IMG/VR virus record: IMGVR_UViG_3300042691_009557
Coordinates: 1-20,447 of that record
Length of the DNA: 20,447 nt
DNA from: a virus
Reading direction: 5' to 3' (one strand)
Each line of letters starts with the position of its first letter. The first letter of the stretch is position 1. Of the stretch, positions 13,328-15,298 are shown in pieces. Made by a program: the position numbers and the translations under genes. Below the pieces are notes generated by a model. That model had not been told where the DNA came from. It saw nothing but the letters and a program-made list of their open reading frames with translations, and ran no database searches.

Positions 13328-14641
13328 ATGACAATTCGTCAAGATTTAGTTAAAAAATGGGCTCCGATTCTCGAATCAGAATCTTGCTCACCAATCAAAG
13401 ATAACTATCGTAAAGAAGTTACTGCTGTTCTTCTAGAAAACCAAGAGCGTGAGATCCGTCGTGGTCACGAAGCTATGGGTGAGTTGAACGAAGCTGCTCC
13501 AGCTAACGCTGTTGGTAGCTATGGCGATACTAATGGTTTCGCTAAGTTCGATCCAGTTCTTATCTCTTTAGTTCGTCGTGCAATGCCACAGATGATCGCT
13601 TATGACGTTGCTGGTGTTCAGCCAATGACTCAACCAACTGGCTTGATTTTCGCAATGAAGTCACGCTATTCAACTCAAGGTGGTACAGAAGCGTTGTTCA
13701 ACGAAGCTGATACAGATTTCTCTGGTGCTGCTTCTCCTGTTCACTCTGGTGCATACGATTTCGGTGGTTCTGAAACTACTGGTACTGGCTTGCCTACTGC
13801 TGACGCAGAGCGTCTAGGTCAAGGCGGATCTGGTGATGGTGCTTTCGGTCAAATGGCTTTCTCAATCGAGAAGACATCTGTAACTGCTAAGACTCGTGCT
13901 TTGAAAGCTGAGTACTCAATCGAATTAGCTCAAGATATGAAATCTGTTCATGGTCTTGACGCTGAAGGTGAATTGAGCAACATCCTTTCAACAGAGATCC
14001 TTGCTGAAATCAACCGTGAAGTTATCCGTACAATCTACAAGACAGCTAAAGCTGGTGCTGCAGTTGGTACTACTACTGCTGGTACTTTCGACTTAGACAC
14101 TGACTCTAATGGTCGTTGGTCTGTTGAGAAGTTCAAAGGTCTAATGTTCCAAATCGAACGTGAAGCCAATGCTATCGGTCAACAAACACGTCGTGGTCGT
14201 GGTAACTTCATCATCACTTCAGCTGACGTAGCGTCTGCTTTAGCGATGGCTGGTGTACTTGACTACACTCCTGCTTTACAAGGTAACAGCAATCTAAACA
14301 TCGATGACACAAGCACTACTTTTGCTGGTGTATTGAATGGTAAGTACAAAGTATATGTTGACCCATATACATCAAACGTATCTAACACTCAGTTCTTCGT
14401 TGTTGGTTACAAAGGTCAGTCAGCATTTGATGCTGGTTTGTTCTATTGCCCATACGTTCCACTCCAGTTGGTTCGTGCAGTTGATCCTAACAGCTTCCAG
14501 CCAAAAATTGGCTTCAAGACTCGTTACGGTCTAGTTGCTAACCCATTCGTTAACTTGGATGACGGCACTTCTGGTCAGGACAACTTGACAGCTAACGCTA
14601 ACTACTACTATCGTCGTGTTAAGGTTTCTAACTTGATGTAA
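13328..14641 (+). CDS. 23: Major capsid protein gp23
   Basis: This is the HK97-fold shell protein. It is recognised from RQDLVKKWAPILESE at the N-terminus, FDPVLISLVRRAMPQMIAYD, VAGVQPMTQPTGLIFAMKSR, AEYSIELAQDMKSVHGLDAE, ILSTEILAEINREVIRTIYK and the C-terminal FQPKIGFKTRYGLVANPFV. It is 437 aa against 521 in T4. The site LNE-A at residues 53-56 fits the gp21 cleavage rule and the expected place for removal of the N-terminal delta segment, leaving a mature chain of 382 aa from A56; a second match (ILE-S, E16) lies inside the removed part. No gp24 vertex gene follows, unlike T4. The ribosome site is AAAAGGA (13314-13320). It is probably transcribed with gp22 from the late promoter at 12282 and ends at the terminator after the gene. 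Confidence 0.97.
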   Translation: MTIRQDLVKKWAPILESESCSPIKDNYRKEVTAVLLENQEREIRRGHEAMGELNEAAPANAVGSYGDTNGFAKFDPVLISLVRRAMPQMIAYDVAGVQPMTQPTGLIFAMKSRYSTQGGTEALFNEADTDFSGAASPVHSGAYDFGGSETTGTGLPTADAERLGQGGSGDGAFGQMAFSIEKTSVTAKTRALKAEYSIELAQDMKSVHGLDAEGELSNILSTEILAEINREVIRTIYKTAKAGAAVGTTTAGTFDLDTDSNGRWSVEKFKGLMFQIEREANAIGQQTRRGRGNFIITSADVASALAMAGVLDYTPALQGNSNLNIDDTSTTFAGVLNGKYKVYVDPYTSNVSNTQFFVVGYKGQSAFDAGLFYCPYVPLQLVRAVDPNSFQPKIGFKTRYGLVANPFVNLDDGTSGQDNLTANANYYYRRVKVSNLM

Positions 14642-14683: not shown

Positions 14684-14712
14684 AAAAGAGGGTCTTCGGA
14701 TCCTCTTTTTTT
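14684..14712 (+). terminator. Intrinsic terminator after gp23
   Basis: AGAGGGTC (14687-14694), the loop TTCG and GATCCTCT (14699-14706) form an 8-bp stem with one G-U pair, closed by the very stable C(UUCG)G tetraloop. A run of seven T (14706-14712) follows. Upstream A residues can extend the stem against the T-run. This is the strongest terminator in the window and separates the gp22-gp23 transcript from the next late gene. Confidence 0.9.
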
Positions 14713-14715
14713 ATT

Positions 14716-14723
14716 CCTAAATA
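14716..14723 (+). promoter_or_regulatory. Late promoter motif (CCTAAATA) next to the tube-like gene
   Basis: CCTAAATA lies between the gp23 terminator and the ATG at 14729. With T4 late promoter geometry (the eight bases at -13 to -6) transcription would start at 14729, the A of the ATG itself. No Shine-Dalgarno sequence is visible between the motif and the ATG. The terminator just upstream means that this gene needs its own promoter, which supports the motif. Confidence 0.6.
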
Positions 14724-14728
14724 ATTGT

Positions 14729-15262
14729 ATGACTACTACTATTACCTGTCCAATTCCGAGTAACATTAATCCATTATCTCCTAATGGGTTTATGTTTACC
14801 ATTCAAAAATTACCTGAGTTAAACTTCTTTGCTCAGACAGTTAATCTTCCAGGAATTACATTAGGTTCACCAGAATACGGTAACCCATTTCAAACACAAC
14901 CAATTCCAGGTGAGTCGTTAACCTATGATCAATTGACAGTTCAATTTTTAATTGATGAAACCATGACAAATTATCAAGCGATCTATAACTGGATCGTTGC
15001 TCTTGGTTTCCCGAATGACTACGAACAATATACAACATTTATTAGTGAAGACAATCGTGGTATAACTTCAGAGTTGGCAACAAACTACTCTGATGCAACA
15101 TTACAAATTCTTTCTGGTAATAATCAAATTGTAAAAACTGTGCAATTTGTTGATCTGTTTCCTATTGCATTAGATTCATTGCAGTTTGCAGGAACAAATA
15201 CTGACGTGCAATACTTAATCGGCAACGCTACATTCCGCTACGGATATTACAAATTCTTGTAA
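14729..15262 (+). CDS. Tail tube-fold virion protein (gp19 paralogue)
   Basis: This is a 177-aa structural protein with the same layout as gp19 in this window. NGFMFTIQKLPELNFFAQTV and NLPGITLG parallel NQFRVELVFPSY and QLPASTIE. ESLTYDQLTVQFLIDETMTN and YNWIVALGFP match the middle strands and helix. The C-terminal VQFVDLFPIALDSLQFAG, then DVQYLIGNATFRYGYY, aligns with KFVDAFPTQISAIGLDYE and FDVEFTYNFF. In T4 the tube fold is also used by gp48 and gp54, which start the tube on the baseplate, so it may be a tube-initiator or baseplate-tube protein. Some T4-like phages have gp3 near uvsY, so gp3 is an alternative by position only. A late promoter motif lies immediately upstream, and there is no ribosome site before the ATG. 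Confidence 0.75.
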   Translation: MTTTITCPIPSNINPLSPNGFMFTIQKLPELNFFAQTVNLPGITLGSPEYGNPFQTQPIPGESLTYDQLTVQFLIDETMTNYQAIYNWIVALGFPNDYEQYTTFISEDNRGITSELATNYSDATLQILSGNNQIVKTVQFVDLFPIALDSLQFAGTNTDVQYLIGNATFRYGYYKFL

Positions 15263-15269
15263 GACAAAC

Positions 15270-15298
15270 TTGATTTTTTTGTAAGATTACTGTATAAT
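15270..15298 (+). promoter_or_regulatory. Sigma-70-like promoter upstream of uvsY
   Basis: TTGATT (15270-15275) and TATAAT (15293-15298) are separated by 17 nt. The -10 is a perfect consensus and the -35 matches four of six. Transcription would start near 15305, about 20 nt before the uvsY ATG, whose ribosome site TGAGG is at 15315-15319. It would be read by the unmodified host polymerase, so it marks the change from late virion genes to early or middle genes. No strong terminator was found between the preceding gene and this promoter. Confidence 0.8.

Follow-up and report, generated by a model that had tools for sequence, protein, structure and literature searches.

Late transcription in bacteriophage T4 relies on promoters (gp55/gp33/gp45) with an 8-bp box located about one helical turn before the transcription start and spanning positions -13 to -6, the commonest T-to-A variant of this box being placed at -13 (PMC2988020). 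Promoters of the form NATAAATA are found in cyanophages, and the gp33 co-activator has been reported for cyanomyoviruses (PMC2984593). A distance of about 15-40 nt usually separates the box from the start codon in T4 and Syn9. In Gram-negative bacteria and the phages that infect them, leaderless mRNAs are generally regarded as exceptional. Leaderless messages in E. coli have been described as using a 70S route of initiation and as resistant to kasugamycin (PMC4929434). Our search of the literature on T4-like phages, cyanophages and pelagiphages, which covered few of the subscription journals, returned no description of a leaderless late mRNA apart from incidental mentions, such as the title of a reference or a passing comment, and no map of transcription starts in Syn9.

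Here, we examine a 20,447-nt DNA fragment from an uncultured relative of T4 (IMG/VR record IMGVR_UViG_3300042691_009557), referred to as the window, in which a possible leaderless late mRNA had been proposed for a tube-like gene located downstream of gp23. As the window is a 20-kb fragment, statements on whole genomes rest on its relatives.

Results

Gene identity and organization of the locus

The window contains a T4-like virion block running from gp18 to gp23, after which come the gene at 14729, uvsY and uvsW. The gene at 14729 matches a tail-tube family, and its cyanophage homologues are annotated as gp3, the tail completion and sheath stabilizer protein (Table 1). The succession of gp23, gp3 and uvsY is also seen in DSL-LC03, Mosig, Melnitz, HTVC008M and P-SSM2, in some cases with extra genes inserted. 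On the basis of the tube-fold family match, the annotated homologues and this synteny, the gene is assigned to gp3. The gene originally designated as tube-like is thus gp3, a paralogue of gp19, and not gp19 itself, which sits elsewhere in the window. Directly before uvsY, a sigma70-like TTGATT-N17-TATAAT sequence (15270-15298) suggests a separate, non-late promoter for that gene.

Table 1. Features of the window discussed in the text
Feature	Position	Strand	Remarks
gp18	start 5408		virion block
gp19	start 7631		tail tube
gp20	start 8242		
gp21	start 11626		
gp22	start 12325		
gp23, major capsid gene	13328..14641	+	phrog_138, E=5e-163; own AAGGA site; upstream neighbour of gp3
gp23 intrinsic terminator	14684..14715	+	11-bp UUCG-type hairpin (14684-14709) + U-run
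Predicted T4-type late promoter box CCTAAATA	14716..14723	+	core TAAATA 14718-14723; expected -13 to -6
Five-nucleotide discriminator ATTGT	14724..14728	+	in relatives with the same spacing, length invariant, sequence variable, -1 always T at gp3
AUG start codon, predicted +1 (putative leaderless 5' end)	14729..14731	+	predicted from the box position
gp3, tail completion and sheath stabilizer, gp19 paralogue	14729..15262	+	phrog_45, E=7e-38
Hairpin CCATTA/TAATGG in gp3 codons 14-21	14768..14790	+	downstream of the nearly unstructured first 40 nt
uvsY	start 15325		
uvsW	start 15735		

Promoter box, terminator and absence of an SD sequence

The sequence across the gp3 start reads ...AAAAGAGGGTCTTCGGATCCTCTTTTTTTATTCCTAAATAATTGT followed by ATGACTACT. 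As originally described, the TAAATA core ends 5 nt before the ATG and a strong terminator separates gp23 from gp3. The box matches the T4 consensus at 6 of 8 bases, with an exact six-base core but an initial CC where the consensus has TA; the orthologous gp3 promoters in other lineages read TATAAATA. While the TAAATA-N5-ATG arrangement (hereafter N5) is unique to gp3 within the window, TAAATA alone is not above chance (16 occurrences seen, 23.5 expected), and the case therefore rests on the comparison with relatives.

No ribosome-binding site is visible upstream of gp3, in agreement with the original observation. Indeed, its best anti-SD duplex (+1.8 kcal/mol) is the weakest of those computed for 18 gene starts of the window, the values being -8.5 for gp18 and gp19, -7.4 for gp22, -5.6 for gp23 and -6.3 kcal/mol for uvsY. 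The lack of an SD follows in part from the box itself, which occupies positions -11 to -6 before the ATG. The strong AAGGAG sites attributed to the neighbours are literally present at gp18 and gp19, but the immediate neighbours gp23 and uvsY carry AAGGA and GAGG.

Predicted transcription start

With the first base of a T4 box at -13, as we read the published position, and its last A at -6, the transcription start would be the sixth base after the box, that is the A of the gp3 ATG. This sixth base is a purine in most leadered late promoters of Melnitz (18/18), Syn9 (16/17), Mosig (16/19) and T4 (19/26), a tendency that is weaker in two other genomes, G001 (8/12) and G002 (7/11). The proposal that the transcript begins with the A of the ATG is thus supported by the T4 box position, by the purine at position 6 and by the fixed spacing described below. 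As in the T4 system, homologues of gp55 (E=6e-16) and gp45 (E=3e-27) are encoded by a close relative, namely the 163-kb G001, whose gp3 is 97% identical to that of the window.

Spacing among gp3 relatives

We compared 84 gp3 loci, including the window, made up of the closest IMG/VR loci and of loci fetched through gp23. The box-to-ATG spacing is 5 nt in 35 of them and 4 nt in one, and none falls at 6-8 nt; the remaining loci have spacings of 9-39 nt or, in 11 cases, no box. Among the 15 closest full gp3 loci of IMG/VR, 14 have the N5 arrangement, and the one exception (L006) shows candidate boxes at both 37 and 23 nt before the homologous ATG, together with an AGGA site, thus representing a natural leadered counterpart. 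Addition of Mosig and HTVC008M brings the N5 gp3 loci to 37, corresponding to 21 lineages at 80% protein identity and 8 at 60%, although these homologous loci are not fully independent since the gp23 tree needs just 3-4 changes of state. The promoter-to-ATG distance, which the original prediction proposed to compare in relatives, is therefore a fixed 5 nt across 21 lineages. The pentamers between box and ATG comprise 17 different sequences, every one of them ending in T, and the length from the gp23 stop codon to the box ranges from 56 to 84 nt, or from 278 to 1594 nt with inserted genes. The constraint at N5 loci is on the length of the spacer and not on its sequence, and the 5-nt spacing of gp3 is under selection.

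These data bear on the possibility that the late promoter is real but fires 1-3 nt upstream of the ATG to give a tiny leader, or that an AU-rich, S1-type standby mechanism allows translation without SD. Initiation at nearby purines can occur at sigma-family promoters, a G is present at 14727, and start-site slippage to this G could give leaders of 1-2 nt. In addition, cyanophage-like gp3 genes (L047, L067, L074, L082, L101, L102 and others) display TCTAAATA followed by 9-15 A-rich nucleotides and no SD, which would imply very short leaders of 4-10 nt. The spacing at gp3 is however exactly 5 nt, with the gap at 6-8 nt noted above, and pentamers that share only the T at -1 leave no conserved alternative purine, so that we regard a tiny leader or standby translation as unlikely.

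A second alternative is that gp3 is mainly translated from read-through mRNA begun at gp23 or further upstream, the TAAATA being incidental. Intrinsic terminators do leak, and transcription of gp23 should be very strong. On the other hand, the gp23 terminator combines a strong UUCG hairpin with a U-run, its position is conserved in close relatives, and a long transcript would offer gp3 no SD. Furthermore, the spacing of 5 nt is also observed in HTVC008M, L078 and L080, where neither the terminator nor gp23 directly precedes the box. We consider read-through as the main source of gp3 mRNA highly improbable. The persistence of the spacing without an adjacent terminator likewise led us to reject the idea that it is a by-product of the terminator.

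The gp3 start codon and the 5' end of the coding region

An internal start at Met22 had been raised as a possibility to be checked against the ATG at 14729. Among relatives, the codons before Met22 show 509 synonymous and 215 nonsynonymous differences, and 661 of 923 changes affect the third position. This pattern indicates that the N-terminus from 14729 is translated and under purifying selection. Met22 was rejected as the start on account of these mostly synonymous upstream changes and of the SD-bearing L006, which uses the homologous ATG. Over its first 40-50 nt, the predicted gp3 mRNA has almost no structure (-0.6 kcal/mol), and an unstructured 5' end favours leaderless mRNAs. The hairpin found further downstream (Table 1) is stable and present in most close relatives, with CCGTT/AACGG in L026; it may reflect the codon constraint of a PLSPNG motif.

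Other genes and genomes

TAAATA-to-ATG distances were scanned genome-wide for ORFs of at least 60 amino acids, called mechanically except where starts were checked against annotations. Spacing 5 was found 12 times in HTVC008M, 6 in Mosig, 4 each in G003 and G001, 3 in Melnitz, 2 in G002, once in T4 and never in Syn9, the single T4 case being a 62-aa ORF that we judged spurious. The cultured pelagiphages HTVC008M and Mosig show a genome-wide peak at this spacing, and the scanned T4 and Syn9 genomes show none. In HTVC008M, 12 of 18 short spacings are at 5 (binomial p 1e-9) and, in the pool without T4, 31 of 66 (p 1e-16), with 3, 3, 2 and 4 cases at spacings 3, 4, 6 and 7; these p-values count orthologues as independent and are indicative only. 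A similar scan of GTG and TTG starts gave no spacing-5 peak, as a requirement for a 5' AUG would predict. The original view that a leaderless message would be unusual for a T4-like virion gene thus holds against T4 and Syn9 but not within the phage's own clade and the pelagimyophages, where the arrangement is normal.

Ten HTVC008M starts that we checked in GenBank coincide with the N5 ATG, and the genes concerned include gp3, gp2 (DNA end protector), CsgF and the genes for head closure, the tail tube cap and the baseplate wedge. Spacing 5 is maintained between diverged genomes in orthologues that are roughly 30-60% identical. This is the case for gp3 (G001, G002, HTVC008M and Mosig), gp2 (HTVC008M, Mosig and Melnitz, with spacings of 6 in G001 and 4 in G002), gp25 (G001, HTVC008M and G003), a phosphoesterase gene (G001 and Mosig) and a 68-aa gene (G001 and G002). 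The latter (MMKAKLSQNLISFVTVRRG...; G001:104431 and G002:98138, both on the minus strand) is preceded in both genomes by a terminator-like GC run and CCTAAATACTTGT-ATG, and a PHROG scan with a 20-residue piece of it gave no match.

Among 15 anagram hexamers at spacing 5, TAAATA ranks first in five genomes and second in G002, and these controls led us to reject a chance A+T-rich hexamer. The least probable reading of the gp3 box, as a sigma70 -10 element or an A+T-rich motif held by shared descent, can point to a 4/6 match with TATAAT and to the chance-level frequency of TAAATA in the window, but no sigma70 -35/-10 pair was found at the gp3 promoter, where terminator sequence occupies the -35 place, the anagrams lack a comparable spacing-5 peak in five genomes, and the box persists while its flanks and the pentamer diverge.

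Evolution of leaderless and leadered layouts

On the gp23 tree, the N5 state is confined to two groups, the clade of the window and a pelagiphage clade, and requires 4 changes, 3 of them forced by well-supported branches, compared with 27.8 when the states are shuffled. Within the clade of the window, a supported subclade (L006, L027, L028, L030 and L035) has leaders, with an SD in 4 of the 5 loci. The tree is compatible with either direction of change between the leaderless and leadered states. From this distribution, it appears that some T4-like phages have evolved leaderless late mRNAs as a recurrent alternative.

In Melnitz (L127, 1479-1505) and L098 (1896-1922), an ATG is kept at the position predicted as +1 from the late promoter. 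It opens an 8-codon frame (MKRENICL and MKRILTCQ) that overlaps the gp3 start out of frame and contains AAAAGG, possibly a leaderless upstream mini-ORF.

Discussion

Taken together, the sequence data make it very probable that late transcription of gp3 starts from a T4-type promoter of its own behind the gp23 terminator, with the A of the ATG as +1, and that the resulting mRNA is leaderless, with a leader of 0-2 nt at most, and translated via its 5'-terminal AUG and not via an SD. The analysis shows how the sequence is laid out, that the spacing of 5 nt is fixed across lineages and genes, that an SD is lacking, that the N-terminus is genuine and that homologues of gp55 and gp45 are present in a relative with 97% gp3 identity; we infer from these features the 5' end of the gp3 RNA and the mode of ribosome binding. 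A leader of 1-3 nt, read-through and a sigma70 promoter are weaker explanations than the leaderless one.

In the proposed scheme, a gp55-recognized late promoter immediately following the gp23 terminator would drive gp3, RNA polymerase would start at the A of the ATG to produce a leaderless mRNA separated from gp23 by the terminator, and the ribosome would recognize the 5'-terminal AUG instead of an SD. By analogy with E. coli, host ribosomes may use the 70S route for this message. The output of gp3 would likely be uncoupled from gp23 and from SD-based competition, which would suit a virion protein of which presumably only a small number of copies is required. As for the nature of the host, G001 and G002 gave no match to the photosystem reaction-centre family, and a cyanobacterial host is thus not supported.

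The gp3 promoter resembles those of T4 and the cyanophages in its TAAATA core, its association with a late virion gene and its lack of a -35 element, but differs from those of T4 and Syn9 in that the predicted +1 coincides with the AUG. Similarly, it shares with leaderless mRNAs of the lambda cI type an expected 5'-terminal AUG, the lack of SD and an unstructured 5' end, but departs from them by its predicted T4-type late promoter, a combination found at virion genes and at several genes per genome. A further close counterpart is gp3 of the Pelagibacter phages HTVC008M and Mosig, where the same gene has the identical N5 layout, although the proteins are about 30% identical, the box reads ACTAAATA or GATAAATA and, in HTVC008M, a gene is inserted and no terminator lies just upstream.

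It is probable that two clades of T4-like phages, the pelagimyophages and the window's clade, regularly express a particular group of genes from leaderless late mRNAs, that many of these genes encode virion proteins (gp3, gp2 and gp25, to which HTVC008M adds the tail tube cap and head closure), and that genes switch between leaderless and SD-leadered states in evolution. If true, leaderless initiation would be a regular part of the lytic late programme at core virion genes of Pelagibacter phages and of the window's clade. HTVC008M and Mosig are cultured systems with this layout, and Pelagibacter is an abundant ocean bacterium. SD-based scoring can misplace the starts of N5 genes, which matters for start-site annotation. 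Finally, one may ask from these observations how the ribosomes of the host deal with two kinds of mRNA late in infection.
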